30,626 nucleotides of DNA, taken from positions 1 to 30,626 of IMG/VR virus record IMGVR_UViG_3300034013_000121; one strand, written 5' to 3'. The position numbers were made by a program, and so were the translations under genes. Position 1 is the stretch's first letter; every line of letters begins with the position of its first letter. Source of the DNA: a virus. The notes below the pieces were generated by a model. It worked only from the letters and a program-made list of their open reading frames with translations, ran no database searches and was not told where the DNA came from. Positions 2,976-28,116 of the stretch are shown piece by piece.

Positions 2976-5900
2976 TTATTTTAAAGATATTAAATTACAA
3001 TTTGATGAATCTGAAGCACTTCCATTTTGTATTGAAACTATTATAAATCCAGCAGATGTCCAATTAATAGCAATTGGCACTATTGCGCTTGTACTTTGTA
3101 CATACGGATTATTTATCCCAGATACTGGTTGAACTATTTGAGTCCCATTGCCACCACCTCCTGCAACCTCAATACCCATATGCCTTATAAGTGCTTGAGA
3201 TAAAGTATTTGCAGCAGCAGCACCAGTACTTGCTATTAAAATTGCACCAGTTAAAGAAGCAGAAGTATTCCAATATACCCTTATAAATTGAGTACCATTT
3301 ATTAAATTTTTTGTTGTTTGAACATATAATTCTAAAGCATCACCTGCTGTAAATGAATTGGCTGGTATTGATAATGTTTTACAAAGGGTAATTCCAGTAG
3401 TTCCAGTTACCGCAGTTCCATTACCAACTGAAACTATTGGTGATTTTAACCCACTTATATCAGTTGTTAAGGTTTGCCTTGCTTCCCATAGTGAAGTTGA
3501 TGTGTTGTAGAACAAACCATCTTTATTTGCAGGGCTTGATGCACTAACATTATGTATCTCATCTAACTCATAGCCATTCTGCATACGATAAACTATTGCT
3601 CCTTGTGTAGCTGGACCTACATTTACAACTTTCCCAATATAAACTATGTGATTTGGCGCAGATGGCTTTACATTAGTAACGTAACCTGCAATAGTAGGGT
3701 GTAGATAAATAGTTTCTCCTACTGCTAATGTCACATCCGTAAATGGGTTTGTAGCAATTGTTCGGGTATCAAGGTTTTCAACTAAACCTATTGTAGCTAC
3801 CCACCCATTTGAATTGTTAGCAATATCAGCAATTACAACACCAAATGTACCAGCAGAAGTTGCCTCTGTATTTGCTTGTGCTTTTACAAAATTAGGTAAT
3901 TGACCAGTTGCACCATTTAAATAAATTATTGTTCCCTTATACAAAGTAACTCCAGTTGAATTGCGACCTTGTGTAACTATTGATTGCGCTTTATCAACTA
4001 TCCCATTATTGTTAATATCATAGGTAGATTTAAACATATCACCACCACCACTGCCACCAATGTAACTAATTAAAAATGTAGATAAATTAGTTAATACTAT
4101 TCTGTCATTAGCTGGGTCATAATAGCTATGAAAGTTACTTGTACCATCTGTAAATATTTTTGCTGGATAATTTTGTCCATACATAAATGCATAACCACCA
4201 CTTGTGTAATTTTGACCAGTTGTACCAGCCTCAATAGTTACATTTTGCAATCCAGCACCAAAAGTAAAACCATTGGCATATTGTTCAAAGGTATTACCGA
4301 TACAATTAGTGTCAAGTATATTATTTGTTGCCCCTTGCTTAAATATGTTATTATTACAACTATCAGCAAGTGTATTGCTACTTGCACCTATTTCAAAAAC
4401 ATTACTATTAGAACTATCTCCTACAATATTATTTTGTGCTGATTGATGAAATGTATTACCGTAGCCATCATTTGTTAAACTATTATTTGTCGCACCTTGA
4501 TGAAATATATTATTAGTACAAACACCTACTAATGTTGTAGTAGTTTCAACACCACTATAAAATACATTATCATTTGCATCATTAATGTACACTCCACCAC
4601 TACCACCAATGTAAGTTTCAACCAATGTAGATAAATTAGTTACAACGATTCTATCGTTTGCTGGGTCATACCAACGATGATAGTTATATACATCATCTGT
4701 AAATATTGTTGAAGCGTATGGTTTATTATATAAAAATGCGTATGCTACTGGGTCACTATAATCACCACCAGAGACACCAGCCTCAATAGTTACGTTTAGC
4801 AGATTATCATAAAATATAAATCCATTTGCGCCTTGCTTAAATGTGTTGTTGTAACAATATTTTCGTAAGTAGTTAGTGTTTGCACCTTCCTCAAATATGT
4901 TATTATTGGAACTATCTCCGATTGAATTATTACTTACACCTTGCTTAAATGTGTTATAACCGCAATTAATTTCAAGTACGTTATTAGCTGCTCTTTGAAA
5001 AAATGTATTATAATTGCAATCATTTCCTAATGTATTATTGGATGCTTTTTGAGCAAAAGTATTATAATTACAAGATTCTCCAATTTCATTAGCACTTGCC
5101 TCTGAACCAAATGTATTAAATGAACAATCATCTAAAAGTTGATTTCCTTGTGATTCTTGTTGAAATGTGTTCTTTTTGCAACCAATTAATAAAGTATTAC
5201 TTGATGCATTTTGCATAAATGTATTATCTTCACAATTATCTCCAAGTGTATTAGATGTCACTTGATAAAATTGATTACGGGCGCAATCTGCTCCAAGTAC
5301 TGTACTTGCAACAATAGCCCCATTCCAAGTATTACCTTGTCCATCACAAATAGTTCCATTAAAATAATTATTTGTTGTTACATCGTAAAAAACAGTGCCA
5401 CTATAAGTAAAGTCAATTATAGTGCCATTTGCACCTAATTTATTCGATGCTTCTGCTTTCATAGCTATTCTAAAAGGAGCATCTATTACAATGTAAATTG
5501 TTGTTAAATCTAATGTTCCAGCAGTTTGCAAATCTGCTAATGCTGCTGAACCTATTTGTATAATATAACCACTCCCTCTATTAACCCAAGTGCCACTTGC
5601 AGCATCTATGCATTCATAAGTAGTGCCATTGTCTAATGTCCACAATGAGCCATCTTGATAGCCCATTGATGCATCATCACTTGTTGTTGGAGGTATATCA
5701 AAGTTATATAATGATTGTCTAATTCCAATACCATCTTGCTGCATTACATATTGTCTTCCTGCTTCCCATTTTAGTTCATAGTCTAATGAACATACTTGAG
5801 CAACACCTTTCCCACCACCTAAACCAGCATCAGTAGTCCCCTCACGTAATCTTGAATTATTGTCAAATTTTATTCCTTGTGCGGAATTAAATTGAATATC

Positions 5901-6314
5901 ATTTGCGCCAGATGTATTACCATTTGTTAATGTGTCTGCAAGTGTCTGTGAGCCTCCTGCAACTGGAGTAAACACTCCACTAACCAAGTCAAATGTGCCA
6001 AACAAACCACTTGTAACATCAATAGCATACTGATAAATTTGATTACCAACACCTCCTGCTGCCATAACAAGATACAATGTGCTACCATCATCAATGAGAT
6101 AATTTTTTAACGATACCAAATCACCAGCCAATGCTAATGCTTGAATGTCAGCTAACAAAATTTGCTCAATGTTTTCCGATAACATATATGCCTTGACTAA
6201 AGATACTGGCACTTTTTGTGACTGATAAACACCAGCACTTACATATTGGTCAATGTCAAGGAAGGACAAATCCTTCATTTCTGAAGCGGTTACTGCATAT
6301 TGGTTAATTTCCAT
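2976..6314 (-). CDS. Tail fibre/spike with repetitive beta-helix, 1112 aa
   Basis: The likely receptor-binding or spike protein. Residues 1-340 hold an N-terminal attachment and linker region (the stretch around GSLWTLDNGTTYECIDAAS suggests a small beta domain). Residues 344-497 are nine 18-residue repeats with consensus xxCxxNTFxQxAxxNxLx, and residues 579-683 are six more, a pattern expected to coil into a right-handed beta-helix with stacked Asn, Phe and Cys. Each block is followed by a related module with NVTIEAG, YDPANDRIV and YIGGSGG (507-574 and 691-757). The C-terminal 340 residues look like a Gly/Ala/Thr-rich beta region, possibly a trimerisation or receptor head. It begins in a TAATG junction with the next tail gene. 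A fibre function is inferred from size, repeats and position. Confidence 0.75.
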   Translation of the reverse strand: MEINQYAVTASEMKDLSFLDIDQYVSAGVYQSQKVPVSLVKAYMLSENIEQILLADIQALALAGDLVSLKNYLIDDGSTLYLVMAAGGVGNQIYQYAIDVTSGLFGTFDLVSGVFTPVAGGSQTLADTLTNGNTSGANDIQFNSAQGIKFDNNSRLREGTTDAGLGGGKGVAQVCSLDYELKWEAGRQYVMQQDGIGIRQSLYNFDIPPTTSDDASMGYQDGSLWTLDNGTTYECIDAASGTWVNRGSGYIIQIGSAALADLQTAGTLDLTTIYIVIDAPFRIAMKAEASNKLGANGTIIDFTYSGTVFYDVTTNNYFNGTICDGQGNTWNGAIVASTVLGADCARNQFYQVTSNTLGDNCEDNTFMQNASSNTLLIGCKKNTFQQESQGNQLLDDCSFNTFGSEASANEIGESCNYNTFAQKASNNTLGNDCNYNTFFQRAANNVLEINCGYNTFKQGVSNNSIGDSSNNNIFEEGANTNYLRKYCYNNTFKQGANGFIFYDNLLNVTIEAGVSGGDYSDPVAYAFLYNKPYASTIFTDDVYNYHRWYDPANDRIVVTNLSTLVETYIGGSGGVYINDANDNVFYSGVETTTTLVGVCTNNIFHQGATNNSLTNDGYGNTFHQSAQNNIVGDSSNSNVFEIGASSNTLADSCNNNIFKQGATNNILDTNCIGNTFEQYANGFTFGAGLQNVTIEAGTTGQNYTSGGYAFMYGQNYPAKIFTDGTSNFHSYYDPANDRIVLTNLSTFLISYIGGSGGGDMFKSTYDINNNGIVDKAQSIVTQGRNSTGVTLYKGTIIYLNGATGQLPNFVKAQANTEATSAGTFGVVIADIANNSNGWVATIGLVENLDTRTIATNPFTDVTLAVGETIYLHPTIAGYVTNVKPSAPNHIVYIGKVVNVGPATQGAIVYRMQNGYELDEIHNVSASSPANKDGLFYNTSTSLWEARQTLTTDISGLKSPIVSVGNGTAVTGTTGITLCKTLSIPANSFTAGDALELYVQTTKNLINGTQFIRVYWNTSASLTGAILIASTGAAAANTLSQALIRHMGIEVAGGGGNGTQIVQPVSGINNPYVQSTSAIVPIAINWTSAGFIIVSIQNGSASDSSNCNLISLK
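4266..4580 (-). repeat. Second block of 54-bp repeats (six 18-aa units)
   Basis: Six further 18-residue units follow the first GGSGG module. The Cys column is kept at residues 599, 653 and 671 and replaced by Asn, Gly and Ser at 581, 617 and 635. The unit beginning DSSNSNVF closely resembles the DSSNNNIF unit of the first block, which suggests block duplication together with the adjoining module. Confidence 0.75.
4824..5285 (-). repeat. First block of 54-bp repeats (nine 18-aa units)
   Basis: Within the fibre gene, nine tandem 54-bp units encode 18-residue coils. The Cys column falls at residues 344, 361, 379, 397, 415, 433, 451 and 487, with Ser at 469; only the first interval is 17. Each unit keeps an N-[TI]-F core. 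DNA identity between units is moderate, so the array is old or diversifying rather than freshly duplicated. Confidence 0.8.
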
Positions 6315-17691: not shown

Positions 17692-17907
17692 TTATTTTAC
17701 AAGCCCTTTATTAGTTAATAATTCAGCAATATTTTCAGATACAATTACTTTTTCACCTGCTTTTAAGCCTTTAAAATCCTTAATAACAACAACCTCAACT
17801 TCTCTTTTTGATTGCGTTACTTCTTTCGCTTCTGATTTCTTTTCAGAAGGAGCAGCAGCAGAGGTTTGCACCTCCGCTACTACTTCTTTAGATTTTACTT
17901 TGCTCAT
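17692..17907 (-). CDS. Small capsid-adjacent protein, 71 aa
   Basis: The first 35 residues are low-complexity and charged (Lys, Glu, Ala, Ser), likely disordered. The last 32 form a compact basic domain (VVVIKDFKGLKAGEKVIVSENIAELLTNKGLVK) that resembles the small beta-barrel-like proteins found next to major capsid genes in many siphoviruses. It starts 4 nt after the capsid gene and ends 1 nt before the connector gene, so it will be co-translated with them. It may decorate or close the head, but I can only say that the position and the GEKV.VSE.IAE.L...G.V pattern are common in this neighbourhood. Confidence 0.7.
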   Translation of the reverse strand: MSKVKSKEVVAEVQTSAAAPSEKKSEAKEVTQSKREVEVVVIKDFKGLKAGEKVIVSENIAELLTNKGLVK

Positions 17908-23411: not shown

Positions 23412-23729
23412 TAGTGATTGAAACTCTGGTAGTGACCTAATGATGTGATATTGAAAACCATTGCTTGTAACCAACGATTGCCACTCCTTTTGCCCTGCTG
23501 ATTGCGCCCCATCAGATGTTTTAAACTCAATCATAAACGCTTTAGCATCATAATAAAGCACCATATCAGACCTACCAGCTATTAGACCTTTAGCCTTGTT
23601 TCTTGCGCCATCAATTTTGTTTTTTGAATTGTTTAAGTTATAGCACAATAGCCCACGATGTTGTGGGTAGGTGTTGTGAAACCAAACGTAGCAATCACTT
23701 TGTATTTTATCCTCCGACTCTTTTATCAT
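23391..23729 (-). CDS. VRR-NUC family nuclease, 112 aa
   Basis: A minimal PD-(D/E)xK nuclease of the VRR-NUC group. GRSDMVLYY gives the metal-binding Asp55, MIEFKT gives Glu68 and Lys70, and AGQKEWQ supplies the conserved Gln80, all in the family order. Phage members are stand-alone proteins of about this size, thought to act on branched or flap DNA intermediates during replication or packaging. The gene overlaps the upstream helicase gene by 23 nt in another frame and has no alternative Met, so the two are translationally coupled. It may work with the helicase on recombination intermediates made by the Bet-type annealing protein encoded further upstream. Confidence 0.85.
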   Translation of the reverse strand: MIKESEDKIQSDCYVWFHNTYPQHRGLLCYNLNNSKNKIDGARNKAKGLIAGRSDMVLYYDAKAFMIEFKTSDGAQSAGQKEWQSLVTSNGFQYHIIRSLPEFQSLIVMLLK

Positions 23730-25188
23730 TTAGTAATTTTGTTATTAGTTCTTGATGCCATTTATTATTATTCACTTTATATTTATCACACCATTTGCTT
23801 AATTCTGTCCCTGCCAATTGCAATGAATAAGATGGTGTTACTATGTTGCTATACTTTTGCTCATACGCAATGATGTGTTCAGCTATTTTGTGCAAAACTG
23901 CATAAGGCTTCCATTGCCTCTCATCTGCCAAATCAAACAATCTTTGTGTCGGAATGTTTATGGGTCTTTCTTTAGTTAATTTTACTAATTCCTTAACTTT
24001 TTCTTCTGCTACTTGGTTTGCTCTTTCCTCTTCAAAATCGTGTCCACAATTTTCGCACACTACTTTTCTTGTATGCTGAAGATGGTTACAACTTGGACAC
24101 TCCTTAACTGGTGACATTCCAACACTTGTCTTTTCTTTTTTAGTGCCATTTCTGAAATATGTTTCCCAATCAAAATAGTCATCATAATATCCGTGCCTTA
24201 CTGTGTTTTTGCCCAAATCAATAACAGTAAATTTGCTCTTATTTTCGCTGGGTCTGCTCCCCCTACCTATCATTTGCAGATATAATGATAGAGATTTTGT
24301 TGCTCTGTTAAGTATTATCGTTTCAATGGTTGGCTCATCAAATCCAGCAGTCAACACACCAACATTACAAATTATGGCATCATTTTCAGCCTTGAATTTT
24401 TGCAATATTTCACTACGTTCTTTTTTTTCCGTATCTCCAGTAATCGAATAAACATTTAAGCCCTCATTTTTAAATGCATTATAGACTGCTGCATTATGAT
24501 TTAAATTTACGTTAAACACCATTGTTTTTTTACCTGCTGATAATTTCCAGTAACTTTCAATGACATTATTAACCATCTTTTCGCTGGAGTAAAATTCCTC
24601 CATTTGCCTCTCATCAAATTCACCCCCTTTAATTTTGAATTTTTGCGCTCCAACCAAATCAGATGCAAAACCAAATGCATCACAATTTACCAAGTGACCA
24701 TCTTCAATAAGATTGCTGATTGATACTGGCTGAATAAGTTCAGCATAATAATCTGCTAATGGGTATTCGTTAATAGGTGTTGCAGTAACTCCAAGCACTT
24801 TACATTCTTGGTCTTGAAAGAATGGCATTTTCTTGAAATTACCGATGTGGCACTCATCAATTATAGTAAGACCAAATTTAGGTAACTTGTTGATGCGCCT
24901 TGCAACTGTTTCCACCATTCCGACATAGTAATTGTAGTCACTTGGTATGGCTTTGACACCTGCTTCAATCAAGAAGCACTTTTCACCCAAACTATTTTTG
25001 GATTGTTGCAATAGTTCATTACGATGCACCAATATTAGCACTCTATTGATGTTTTCAGCATAGTAACGCTTTGCATATTCGCAAAAAGTAAAAGTTTTGC
25101 CAGAGCCAGTTGGCATTTGTAACGCAATGTTCTTGTTTGCGCTACTTTCGATTGTCATTATTGCTTTGTTTTGGTATTCTCTTAACAT
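23707..25188 (-). CDS. SF2 DEAD/DEAH-type helicase with zinc ribbon
   Basis: A 493-residue superfamily 2 helicase. MPTGSGKT (motif I, 25-32), IIDECHIG (motif II, DECH), GVTATP (motif III) and QMIGRGSRP (motif VI) are all present. The central region also has NVGVLTAGFDEPTIETIILNRAT, usual for motifs IV-V. A C-terminal CxxC-x10-CxxC zinc ribbon (Cys364, 367, 378, 381) is followed by a helical tail, a layout shared with phage DNA helicases of the RadD/UvsW-like type. It would unwind forks or branch-migrate recombination intermediates. The gene is downstream of the repeat-rich region at 25189-25385 and overlaps the nuclease gene by 23 nt. Confidence 0.9.
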   Translation of the reverse strand: MLREYQNKAIMTIESSANKNIALQMPTGSGKTFTFCEYAKRYYAENINRVLILVHRNELLQQSKNSLGEKCFLIEAGVKAIPSDYNYYVGMVETVARRINKLPKFGLTIIDECHIGNFKKMPFFQDQECKVLGVTATPINEYPLADYYAELIQPVSISNLIEDGHLVNCDAFGFASDLVGAQKFKIKGGEFDERQMEEFYSSEKMVNNVIESYWKLSAGKKTMVFNVNLNHNAAVYNAFKNEGLNVYSITGDTEKKERSEILQKFKAENDAIICNVGVLTAGFDEPTIETIILNRATKSLSLYLQMIGRGSRPSENKSKFTVIDLGKNTVRHGYYDDYFDWETYFRNGTKKEKTSVGMSPVKECPSCNHLQHTRKVVCENCGHDFEEERANQVAEEKVKELVKLTKERPINIPTQRLFDLADERQWKPYAVLHKIAEHIIAYEQKYSNIVTPSYSLQLAGTELSKWCDKYKVNNNKWHQELITKLLNDKRVGG

Positions 25189-25196
25189 AATTTTAT

Positions 25197-25385
25197 TGTT
25201 ACAGATGTTACACTTTGTTTACACTTTTTTTTCAATCTGTAACCTACTGCTGCAAGGATGTTACAGATGTTACAGATTATTATCATTATTATACTTAATA
25301 TACTATACACACACACGCACACACACGCACACATTATTTTATATGGGATAATTGAAATATGCATTTTATCTGTAATCTGTAACAT
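25197..25385. repeat. Iteron-like TGTTACAGAT repeats between helicase and primase
   Basis: The 197-nt gap between the helicase start and the primase stop holds repeats of TGTTACAGAT with a 10-bp period. Copies are at 25197-25212 (one and a half units) and 25259-25278 (two units) on the plus strand, and AATCTGTAAC at 25234-25243 and an inverted double unit at 25368-25385 on the minus. A further half unit (GATGTTACA, 25420-25429) lies in the end of the primase gene. The spacing and inverted pairs suggest a binding array for a replication initiator or repressor. The gap is otherwise AT-rich. Confidence 0.6.
25305..25333. repeat. CA dinucleotide tract
   Basis: An alternating purine-pyrimidine tract of CA units interrupted by two CG steps, in the middle of the gap between helicase and primase. 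Such tracts can take unusual DNA forms and are rare in phage genomes. It is flanked by AT-rich sequence and by the inverted TGTTACAGAT repeats. Confidence 0.8.
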
Positions 25386-27497
25386 TTATAGAGTATCTGA
25401 TTCATTATCAACATTATAGGATGTTACACTTCCTTTGATTTTTACCTCATAAGCACGAATAGTCTTTGAACCATTCCTAAAAATGGTCTGTTCATAGCCA
25501 CATTTTTTCAATGCTTGACCCATTCTTTTGGTGTTAGTTTTAAAAGTAGGATGTAATTTTTGCAATTCCAGAATTACATCGGTATTTGTCATTTTGCTTA
25601 ATGGGTCATTTTGGATATGTCTATTAATCAATTCGACCTCACTCATTACCTCGATGTTTTTTTCGTTGGCTTTGTTTAAGTATTCGATTTCTCTTTTGGT
25701 TAGAAACCAAGCCTCCTTATCCGACTTCCATTCGTTGTATAGTTCGATAAATAGTTTATCCTTATCAATCTTTATGTAAGCATCAAAATCAAAGCTAATT
25801 AAGTTTATGGGTATAATACGCCTATTTCCAGTTGGGTCATTAATTACTTCAGCATCATTCGATGTGCCTCCTAATACTGCTAAACGCAATAAGTCTTCAG
25901 ATACTCTTCCGTATGGCATACGAATTGAGAATGTTTGTTGACTGCTCATACGTTTTAATTTTGTAGCATCTTTTTTTGACTTACCTCCAAACTCATCATC
26001 CACAATGAGCCACTTTTTTGTCATTAGTATTTCGGAGTCCTTGCCCTCATCCAAGTTACTTTCAGCATAAAATTTACGCAAATCTTTTGGCAATAAATTT
26101 CTGTAAAATTCAGTTTTCTTGATTCCTTGTTCTCCAGTAATAACTAAAATCATTAACGAATAAGTGCCATAGGCAGAACCAATAAGACCTAACAACCACT
26201 TTTTAAGGTATGTATCTAAATAATCATCAAAATTATAGACACCATCATTCTCATAGATTAACTGCTCAATTTCAAAGCACTTTTTTAGCTTATCAAATTC
26301 ATTATCAGTTGTCAGATGTGAATTATTCTCAAACCATTTTTTAATTGGGTTATAAGATGTGCTATTGTCTTTATTTTGAATTAACGTAAAGACTTTGTCC
26401 TTTGAAATACCATCATCAATTTTTTGCCAAACTTTAGTGTAGAAATTTGCCAGAATTCTGTCGGTCATTTCTTCACCATTAAATTCAAAATTGCGTGTGA
26501 TTTCATTAAATTTTACATTGTTTAATTTTATAAGTTCAATTATGTCATCAATCTCTGTATTTTCTTTTTTTAAATTAGGTTTAAGAAATTCATCTGCATC
26601 GGTAATGTTTAATTTTTTTAGGTCTTCTTGCGGATTATCAGATAACTTTACTATACTCTTTATTTTTTCAGTTCTTTCCGATGTGGTGCTGATACCTGCT
26701 TGTCGAAAAATATAGTAGATACTTGCAATGCTAACTCCAGTTCCGCTTCTTTGCAAAGCTACATTGTAATCTCTTTCTGCTTGTCGGTGTGAATATTTTG
26801 GTGATGATTGGCAAAGTGAATGAAAATAGTTGCGACCACTTTCGCTAAATTCCTGCGTTAATGCAAATGCCAATCGAATGTAATCTTCATAGTTGTCGAA
26901 TAAATTCATTGGTGCTGCCTTAACTACCATCTCATCAAAATCAGTTTTAACAACTACTGGCTTCGGTTTTGGTTTGTCTTTTTTCTTTAGGTAGGTCTTA
27001 AATGTTTTCGATTTTTTGTTTATGTAGATGTCTGGGTCATATGACACAAAACGCAATCTGCTTGTGTCTTTGCAACTTTTGTCCAGCACAATAGAAAACT
27101 GCACCATAAAGTAATTTTCAAGCGAAAGAAACGCATCTAAATGCCTTGCACCATCTATACGAATAAATACTGCATAGCCATTACCAGATAGTGAACGATG
27201 CACCGAGTAAACGTACTCATTGCTTTTAATTCTCTCAATGTCAACTTCAGCAATTTGGTCTTTCGCATCAATATCAAGACAAATGAAACCACTATGTTCA
27301 AGCAATTTATTGGCTGCCCTTTGCTTGAATGAACCACTCGCAGTTACGCAAGTAGTTAACTCTTTTTGTGTGCGACCAGCACGAAAGTTTAGCACCTCAT
27401 CTTGCCAACGACCATTTTTAATACCATCAAAATACTCATCAACCTCAATACTGGCATCTGATTGGTTACTCTTTGCACTCTTAAATAATGATATCAT
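25386..27497 (-). CDS. VirE-type primase-helicase, 703 aa
   Basis: A bifunctional replication protein. The N-terminal 170 residues are a BT4734/VirE-N primase-like domain with FICLDIDAKD (71-80), SLSGNGYAVFI (102-112) and DTSRLRFVSYDPDIY (144-158), a pattern seen in archaeo-eukaryotic-type primases of Bacteroidota elements. A linker and PriCT-like helical region follow (200-270). Residues 430-570 form a VirE ATPase: P-loop GEQGIKKT at 455-462, Walker B WLIVDDEF at 496-503, and DPTGNRRIIPI near 554-564. The C-terminal part is helical and DNA-binding in look. Its mRNA has a long structured leader (27498-27601). The last codons contain a GTNAC repeat like the adjacent iteron array. It would prime and unwind DNA at the phage origin. 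Confidence 0.88.
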   Translation of the reverse strand: MISLFKSAKSNQSDASIEVDEYFDGIKNGRWQDEVLNFRAGRTQKELTTCVTASGSFKQRAANKLLEHSGFICLDIDAKDQIAEVDIERIKSNEYVYSVHRSLSGNGYAVFIRIDGARHLDAFLSLENYFMVQFSIVLDKSCKDTSRLRFVSYDPDIYINKKSKTFKTYLKKKDKPKPKPVVVKTDFDEMVVKAAPMNLFDNYEDYIRLAFALTQEFSESGRNYFHSLCQSSPKYSHRQAERDYNVALQRSGTGVSIASIYYIFRQAGISTTSERTEKIKSIVKLSDNPQEDLKKLNITDADEFLKPNLKKENTEIDDIIELIKLNNVKFNEITRNFEFNGEEMTDRILANFYTKVWQKIDDGISKDKVFTLIQNKDNSTSYNPIKKWFENNSHLTTDNEFDKLKKCFEIEQLIYENDGVYNFDDYLDTYLKKWLLGLIGSAYGTYSLMILVITGEQGIKKTEFYRNLLPKDLRKFYAESNLDEGKDSEILMTKKWLIVDDEFGGKSKKDATKLKRMSSQQTFSIRMPYGRVSEDLLRLAVLGGTSNDAEVINDPTGNRRIIPINLISFDFDAYIKIDKDKLFIELYNEWKSDKEAWFLTKREIEYLNKANEKNIEVMSEVELINRHIQNDPLSKMTNTDVILELQKLHPTFKTNTKRMGQALKKCGYEQTIFRNGSKTIRAYEVKIKGSVTSYNVDNESDTL

Positions 27498-27601
27498 ATT
27501 TTATAAATTAAAGAAACCCCTAACAAAGTGCGCCACCGCCAAGAGGCTGCACGATGATAGGGGTTATATTATTAAATTTCTTCAAGTTGGCGGTTATTTC
27601 G
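27498..27601 (-). ncRNA. Structured 5' leader RNA with pseudoknot, upstream of primase
   Basis: The leader runs from the promoter at 27606-27613 to ATG 27497. On the minus strand AACCCCTA (27565-27558) pairs with TAGGGGTT (27522-27515) over 8 bp. Inside it GTGC/GCAC and GCC/GGC form a second helix with one bulged base. The 10-nt loop TCTTGGCGGT carries TTGGCGGT, complementary over 8 nt to ACCGCCAA at 27594-27587, giving a pseudoknot. A U-rich run (TTTCTTT) follows the closing helix, so it could also act as an attenuator. The structure could equally be drawn on the other strand, but promoter and gene orientation favour the minus strand. Confidence 0.6.
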
Positions 27602-27605
27602 TTTG

Positions 27606-27637
27606 CAAATATAAGTAATAATTACTTAATCTGCAAG
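27606..27637 (-). promoter_or_regulatory. Promoter of the primase gene
   Basis: TATATTTG (27613 to 27606) with CTTG (27637-27634) 20 nt upstream, close to the TTTG consensus. It overlaps the last codons of the Gp157 gene. It gives the primase gene, and probably the helicase and nuclease genes, a transcript of their own with a leader of about 103 nt. Confidence 0.6.
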
Positions 27638-28116
27638 TTCCGATGTGTTTCTATCCTGCATCCAGTAACCTCAAAACCATCCTTTAACGCTGCCTTAATA
27701 GCTGCCTTATCGGCTTGTTCTGTTACTTTTACCACCTTGTAAAGTGATGGCAGTTGGTTTACATCATCCACTTCAACTGTTTCCGATTTACGAAAGTTGA
27801 TTTTTACTAAAGGTGTCTTAATCTCATCAATCTGGAATGTGTCCATTGCGTGTTTGATTCGCTCCTTTAGATATTCTGAAGCCTTTTCACGTTGCTTTTT
27901 TAATGCTTGTAACCTTTTTATTTCAGCATCAATGGTATCAACATCAGCATCCATTTGCTTGATAACAAAGGAATAGGCAACTGATTTGTTTTGCAGTTGT
28001 TCTTCAGTAATGGCAAGTGCTTCCTCAAGAGAGGGGGTTAACTCACCCCCATTCTCTATAAGTTCTTCTGCTAACTGATTGTAATTTTGCTCAATTTGGA
28101 ATATTGTAGTTTTCAT
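27622..28116 (-). CDS. Gp157-family protein, 164 aa
   Basis: The sequence matches the siphovirus Gp157 pattern (PF05565): an N-terminal helical segment with NYNQLAEELIENGGELTPSLEEAL, then a long coiled coil (DAEIKRLQALKKQREKASEYLKERIKHAMD), a beta stretch with IKTPLVKINFRKSETVEVDD, then LPSLYKVVKVTEQADKAAIKAALKDGFEVTGCRI. Length is normal. Family members sit next to phage recombinases and SSB genes, and a Streptococcus thermophilus phage homologue was linked to phage resistance, but the biochemical role is not known. It shares one base with the upstream Bet-like gene (TAATG), showing coupled translation of the recombination genes. Confidence 0.85.
   Translation of the reverse strand: MKTTIFQIEQNYNQLAEELIENGGELTPSLEEALAITEEQLQNKSVAYSFVIKQMDADVDTIDAEIKRLQALKKQREKASEYLKERIKHAMDTFQIDEIKTPLVKINFRKSETVEVDDVNQLPSLYKVVKVTEQADKAAIKAALKDGFEVTGCRIETHRNLQIK

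Follow-up and report, generated by a model that had tools for sequence, protein, structure and literature searches.

The window, by which we mean the whole stretch of DNA analysed, is a virus record of 30,626 bases, and on its minus strand, between a Gp157-like gene and a primase gene, sits a structured leader RNA (Table 1). The leader lies behind a -7 element of the TAnnTTTG type, the Bacteroidota promoter consensus (PMC7366714), and is about 103 nt long after TATATTTG; transcription is expected to start a few nucleotides downstream of this element, near 27598-27600. A letter-by-letter check of the minus strand recovered each part that the preliminary description had drawn: an 8-bp closing helix, an inner helix of 4 + 3 bp with one bulge, an 8-nt match between the hairpin loop and an upstream segment at exactly the positions claimed, the promoter, the leader length and the U-rich run behind the closing helix. 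That description had also proposed that the loop pairing and the closing helix might compete or combine. Since they use different bases, the two can form together, so that the combined fold stands and the competition falls away. The loop strand UUGGCGGU adjoins the 3' arm of the inner helix, and the two may stack, while the stem around ACCGCCAA is weak or absent in the window and amounts to 4 bp in a relative of the same sequence type (L031).

Table 1. Genes and leader features of the window, with positions counted from its first base
Feature	Positions	Strand	Remarks
DEAD/ResIII helicase gene	23707-25188	-	Next gene after the primase
Primase gene, VapE/BT4734-type (PF08800, PF08707, PF05272)	25386-27497	-	Downstream of the leader; the regulated gene in the proposal
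U-rich tract UCUUUAAUUUAU	27503-27514	-	Immediately follows the closing helix; together they have the shape of an intrinsic terminator, placed between promoter and start codon
Closing (terminator) helix, 3' arm UAGGGGUU	27515-27522	-	
Inner helix, 3' arm GGCGCAC	27528-27534	-	Pairs as GGC-GCAC
Pseudoknot 3' strand UUGGCGGU	27535-27542	-	Hairpin loop; complementary to ACCGCCAA
Inner helix, 5' arm GUGC(A)GCC	27545-27552	-	Two pairs with compensatory changes
Closing (terminator) helix, 5' arm AACCCCUA	27558-27565	-	Compensatory changes in relatives
A/U-rich linker TTGAAGAAATTTAATAATAT	27566-27586	-	Length and A/T-richness conserved across unrelated types
Pseudoknot 5' strand ACCGCCAA	27587-27594	-	In most other types, the loop of a 5'-terminal hairpin with 4-7 bp
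-7 promoter element TATATTTG	27606-27613	-	Bacteroidota TAnnTTTG type
Gp157-like gene	27622-28116		Other flank of the leader

Elsewhere in the window, the strongest local hairpin (17842-17896, minus strand), at -29.9 kcal/mol per 55 nt, falls at the beginning of a small gene (17692-17907), and positions 2976-6314 of the minus strand encode a virion-like protein of 1112 aa in which repeats of the NNTF-x-Q/E type form long runs. Close to where the primase gene ends at its 3' side, TG/GT dinucleotides are repeated in runs, both in the window (25182-25385) and in a relative, L034 (2489-2617). A snoRNA match in the Rfam search was caused by these repeats and was rejected as spurious.

The leader folds more stably than shuffled versions of itself (z = -2.74; 3 of 200 shuffles equally good, with the pseudoknot not counted), and an 8-nt loop match as good as that of the window has a probability of about 0.007 against shuffled 5' segments. 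For 22 leaders combined, the loop matches give a Fisher p of about 5e-21, a value that is overstated, as several of them share lineages or genomes. A descriptor of the whole layout, defined as a terminator-shaped hairpin whose inner 7-mer is complementary to a segment at most 60 nt upstream, matched twice in 735,000 bases of simulated sequence, picked out the leader site alone in the window, and recovered essentially all known leaders plus new ones. A simple terminator scan passed over the window hairpin, whose loop exceeds the length that the scan allows. The earlier remark that the leader matches no known riboswitch held up, in that no Rfam family was found: Rfam 15 gave no match in the window; among 10 loci of type J and other kinds, none reached the gathering score; and in 7 loci carrying types A-F the leader stayed unmatched up to E = 5, the matches listed there being eukaryotic RNAs outside the leader.

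A protein search of IMG/VR with the primase returned 65 loci, a set that was later extended. In phages whose primases are 63-99% identical the leader is always found in the same place, and these same-place leaders belong to at least 10 unrelated sequence types. Written as 5' segment/hairpin loop, the pairing sequences are ACCGCCAA/UUGGCGGU in type A (the type of the window), ACCCGCCAA/UUGGCGGGU in A', GUUGCGGC/GCCGCAAC in B, GUUGCGC/GCGCAAC in C, AGGGACG/CGUCCCU in D, AGCUGGAA/UUCCAGCU in E, AUGCAG/CUGCAU in F, ACGACCAA/UUGGUCGU in G, GGGUGAGAA/UUCUCACCC in H and GUAGCUC/GAGCUAC in I. Relatives that keep the gene and lose complementarity, which would have spoken against the preliminary description, were not found; every intact close relative keeps complementarity despite complete sequence change. 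One 39.6-kb record, IMGVR_UViG_3300042310_000167 (L016 and L030), has the primase twice, in copies that are not identical and lie toward opposite ends of the record, and may be a chimeric assembly.

What the types have in common is a layout: a TAnnTTTG promoter, a 5'-terminal hairpin, an A/T-rich linker, a terminator-shaped hairpin, a U-tract and the ATG, with the inner loop of the terminator-shaped hairpin pairing with the 5' loop over 6-10 nt. In nearly all leader types the spacing between the promoter element and the 5' hairpin is constant. In 18 representatives, this hairpin mostly starts 4-6 nt past the element (range 4-14) and is usually 16 nt long (a 4-bp stem with an 8-nt loop), the A/T-rich linker measures 17-24 nt, and the terminator-shaped hairpin spans 38-51 nt, or 69 in type J. 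All 18 have 5-8 U in the first 9 nt after the hairpin, and the ATG follows 10-25 nt past the hairpin. Inside the hairpin of L023, L033, L036, L520, L556 and L303 there is a loop-E-like module, AGUAGG...CCGAAA, the remaining sequence being unrelated.

Promoter, stable hairpin with U-tract and then a start codon with no second promoter make up the anatomy of an attenuator, and since the ATG lies just past the U-tract hairpin, expression from the leader promoter needs read-through. A different reading of the same anatomy is that the leader is a 5' UTR element whose knotted end protects the messenger or gates ribosome entry, the terminator shape being incidental. The 5' hairpin does lie near the expected transcription start and the closing helix does end near the ATG, and an element acting on translation or mRNA stability would yield much of the same sequence evidence; control of that kind, however, has no need of a U-tract, and one follows the hairpin in every representative, so we regard this reading as decidedly unlikely.

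In relatives with 36%-identical primases the gene order is reversed: the helicase-primase operon begins with the helicase or a small gene, and the leader lies ahead of it. In L041, leader and primase are separated by an HNH gene. The place at the operon head is kept despite a change of gene order or an HNH insertion. Further leaders precede genes for a C5 DNA methyltransferase, an MT-A70 methyltransferase-domain protein, NUMOD4/HNH and GIY-YIG endonucleases, DUF6291 proteins and an ATPase/GNAT protein. Close relatives of the window (L270, L523, L545 and L552, from G016, G017 and G007) have a second leader, GUAGGAG/CUCCUAC, before a C5 DNA methyltransferase gene, and in G016 and G007 a type A primase leader is present alongside the one for the methyltransferase. 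The preliminary description dealt with the RNA as a leader of the primase gene; it is indeed found there, but other genes are preceded by it too, and it is not specific to the primase.

Covariation was assessed in two alignments with the pseudoknot considered. Type J, with the scaffold GGCUGCGAG...CCGCAGCUU, was aligned as 39 distinct sequences with the pseudoknot included in the structure: paired cells make up 97.6%, both sides have changed in 180 cells where shuffles give 54, and the covariation score is 0.433, compared with 0.147 when shuffled and at most 0.063 in slid registers. Its pseudoknot helix is 97.7% paired, and four of its pairs are each double-changed in 10-20 sequences; the counts for the closing helix are slightly low owing to a one-column shift in a few rows. 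Among the 17 distinct sequences of type A, 98.8% of cells are paired, with 20 double-changed cells against 5.7 after shuffling. The shuffle counts overstate significance, the sequences being related, a weakness from which the slid-register controls are free. Covarying pairs in all three helices, which the preliminary description had named as support, were found in part within the window's own type: type A covaries in the closing and inner helices, whereas its pseudoknot varies only by one matched extra C-G pair. That the match arose by chance in an ordinary terminator might have been argued from the single window site, where the loop match taken by itself has a p of about 0.007, but it is refuted by covariation in two independent alignments and by a layout that recurs in unrelated types, and we give it practically no credence. 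Together, the relatives with the same layout and the covariation support the initial view of a pseudoknotted leader as a candidate new regulatory RNA.

The comparison of two loci, L031 (type A) and L032 (type C), bears on what might read this RNA. Their primase genes are 99.2% identical over 2.1 kb, their leaders cannot be aligned, and their upstream flanks differ too. Leaders that are unalignable before near-identical primases indicate that the leader moves by recombination, and equally that it is not read by the primase through conserved sequence. Control by a small-molecule ligand or by primase binding, both raised in the preliminary description, is for this reason unlikely, and an autogenous protein-binding leader was rejected, co-conservation of RNA and protein being absent from this pair. 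In phage T4, the gene 32 leader has a pseudoknot near the 5' end of a replication mRNA that is bound by the gene's own protein; unlike it, the leaders here differ completely before nearly identical genes. A metabolite riboswitch, for instance a relative of the glutamine riboswitches (glnA, Downstream-peptide), is suggested by the AGUAGG...CCGAAA found in the hairpin of several types, which, together with the pseudoknot, presumably resembles the core and AGUAGG/CCGAA loop-E module of those RNAs. Yet the module is absent from the window and from types A, G, H, J and K, covariance models (RF01704 and RF01739 among them) give no match, neither at gathering score in 11 sources nor up to E = 5 in seven others, the pairing sequences are not conserved, there is no unpaired core conserved across types and the regulated genes are not metabolic, all of which leaves a riboswitch very improbable. 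A ribozyme was considered as well and rated low.

While scaffolds are retained within a type, the pairing loops change quickly and in concert. In close relatives they diverge about three times faster than the scaffold, always on both strands; in type J pairs at 5-10% scaffold divergence, 27% of loop sites differ compared with 8% in the scaffold, and the codes are different in 18 of 20 such pairs. L406 and L412, for example, differ at 1 of 90 scaffold sites and at 2 of 9 positions in each loop strand, both changes being complementary, and identical codes reappear on diverged scaffolds. The codes are also largely orthogonal: loop duplexes, calculated as duplexes only and not as pseudoknots, have a mean energy of -13.4 kcal/mol for cognate and -4.4 for non-cognate pairs, and 1.3% of non-cognate pairs match the stability of the weaker cognate pair. 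Genomes with more than one leader carry different codes, namely three in G441, two each in G017, G428, mumin9-1 and snusmum6-1, and at least two in G439. The three codes of G441 lie within an 11.4-kb record (L556, G441:C1:1-11432), before DUF6291-like, small unknown and MT-A70-domain genes. That the loops change fast and together, and that codes differ inside one genome, suggests that molecules can pair with one another and that such pairing is either used or avoided.

Promoter and terminator in close succession, and a discrete length near 90-120 nt, would also suit a standalone phage small RNA, a decoy or regulator of host or phage targets that merely happens to lie upstream of operons. We find this improbable: the leader always stands directly before a gene with no space for another promoter ahead of the ATG, the window loop ACCGCCAA/TTGGCGGT recurs only once in the genome, in another region, and different codes per genome point to self-pairing and not to a shared target.

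We therefore propose, at about even confidence, that the leader acts as a transcription attenuator of early operons, folded as a pseudoknot and carrying a loop code of its own. RNA polymerase would initiate a few nucleotides before the 5'-terminal loop or hairpin and then transcribe the A/U-rich linker and the intrinsic-terminator hairpin. The 5' loop, being made first, would pair with the inner loop as the terminator hairpin emerges, and the pseudoknot would probably form on the nascent RNA before the last terminator arm exists. By stacking on the inner helix of the terminator, it would set how often the polymerase stops before the start codon, such that part of the transcripts would end as an RNA of about 90-120 nt and the rest would read through into the early or replication operon. 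We infer that termination occurs and that the pseudoknot modulates it, and we favour a direction in which pairing promotes termination. A private code for each leader would let leaders in one cell avoid pairing with each other's products. As for a switch within the leader, no antiterminator fold conserved across types was recognised by inspection; the terminator 5' arm of type J contains a conserved GCCC-N5-GGGC repeat, with G-U pairs retained in the long stem (for example L442:1094-1237), and this repeat could form a small competing, antiterminator hairpin.

The same parts could work between molecules. The terminated leader would then pair with nascent leaders of the same code and force their termination, which would provide feedback on copy number or dose in the course of an infection, or would shut out co-infecting phages that have this code. 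Precedent comes from the CI RNA of satellite phage P4, which derives from the leader of the replication operon and pairs with sequences of the same transcript to terminate transcription (PMC4825925). The orthogonal codes, the exchange of leaders between phages with 99.2%-identical primase genes, and loop change some three times faster on both strands, as expected if identity matters between molecules, all fit this trans-acting version. However, loops on one molecule should meet first and leave little free loop, recombination could equally produce the fast loop change, and the 37 viral records contain no lysogeny genes, so that we hold trans action to be unlikely, although somewhat ahead of the 5' UTR reading. 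A broader idea, RNA-only self-recognition in virulent phages, would have every early operon begin with a leader whose two loops bear a matching, hypervariable code, control being limited to transcripts of the same code, so that phages and operons would regulate themselves and possibly exclude same-code rivals; we put it forward tentatively, as slightly more probable than that specific mechanism.

The lifestyle of the carriers constrains these ideas further. The family occurs both in metagenomic phages of Bacteroidota type and in two Flavobacterium phages in culture, mumin9-1 and snusmum6-1, which belong to isolates that PMC7077304 describes as virulent. Searches of viral records, many of them fragments, revealed neither a tyrosine integrase (37 records) nor a large serine recombinase (26 records), and no prophage copy appeared in the genomes and records searched. 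A role in lysogenic immunity is thus unlikely, given the lack of lysogeny genes in the records and the isolates' description as virulent. The exact type J pattern occurs in none of 395 Bacteroidia genomes; a covariance-model search of the same 395, in which a fast pre-filter left 8 candidates per genome to be scored, yielded one marginal match lacking the architecture, which is weak evidence of absence. A scan of genome contigs did find one relative, in a Flavobacteriales MAG contig. Scans of viral sequences with the pattern returned mostly unrelated contigs and a few new members, DNA similarity searches against named phages and plasmids gave nothing, and the descriptor found no element in Cellulophaga phi46:1, Nonlabens P12024S or Flavobacterium 6H.

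Among known systems, P4 CI RNA is by analogy the nearest in function. Like the P4 leader with its seqA, seqB and seqC, the RNA described here is a structured leader of a primase or replication operon with self-complementary segments. Control there works by premature termination, which is predicted from sequence here. The complementary segments here are, unlike those of P4, a 5'-terminal loop and the interior of an intrinsic-terminator hairpin; several copies with different codes occur per genome; no sequence relation is evident; and the phages appear virulent, whereas P4 CI RNA belongs to a temperate setting in which lysogeny is maintained. In the antisense attenuators and copy-control RNAs of plasmids (pT181, ColE1 RNA I/II, CopA/CopT), loop-loop recognition sets specificity between two RNAs from opposite strands, and changes of the loop create orthogonal pairs (orthogonal attenuators: PMC3753616), whereas both loops here lie on one RNA from one strand. 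The put RNAs of phage HK022 are hairpins of early transcripts that act on termination, with conserved sequences acting on polymerase; here, by contrast, almost no sequence is conserved across leader types and the terminator is built in.

Literature searches, limited to open papers and chosen terms, returned no prior description, and the leaders appear to form a widespread family of phage regulatory RNAs, so far undescribed, that would control operons for replication and DNA modification. Sequence homology searches miss them because almost only the layout is conserved. As natural, dense collections in which orthogonal loop pairs sit on a conserved scaffold, they would offer a view of how RNA specificity evolves, and such pairs could supply ready-made control parts for Bacteroidota. 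For the phages themselves, the timing of early genes in virulent lineages without known repressors becomes testable.
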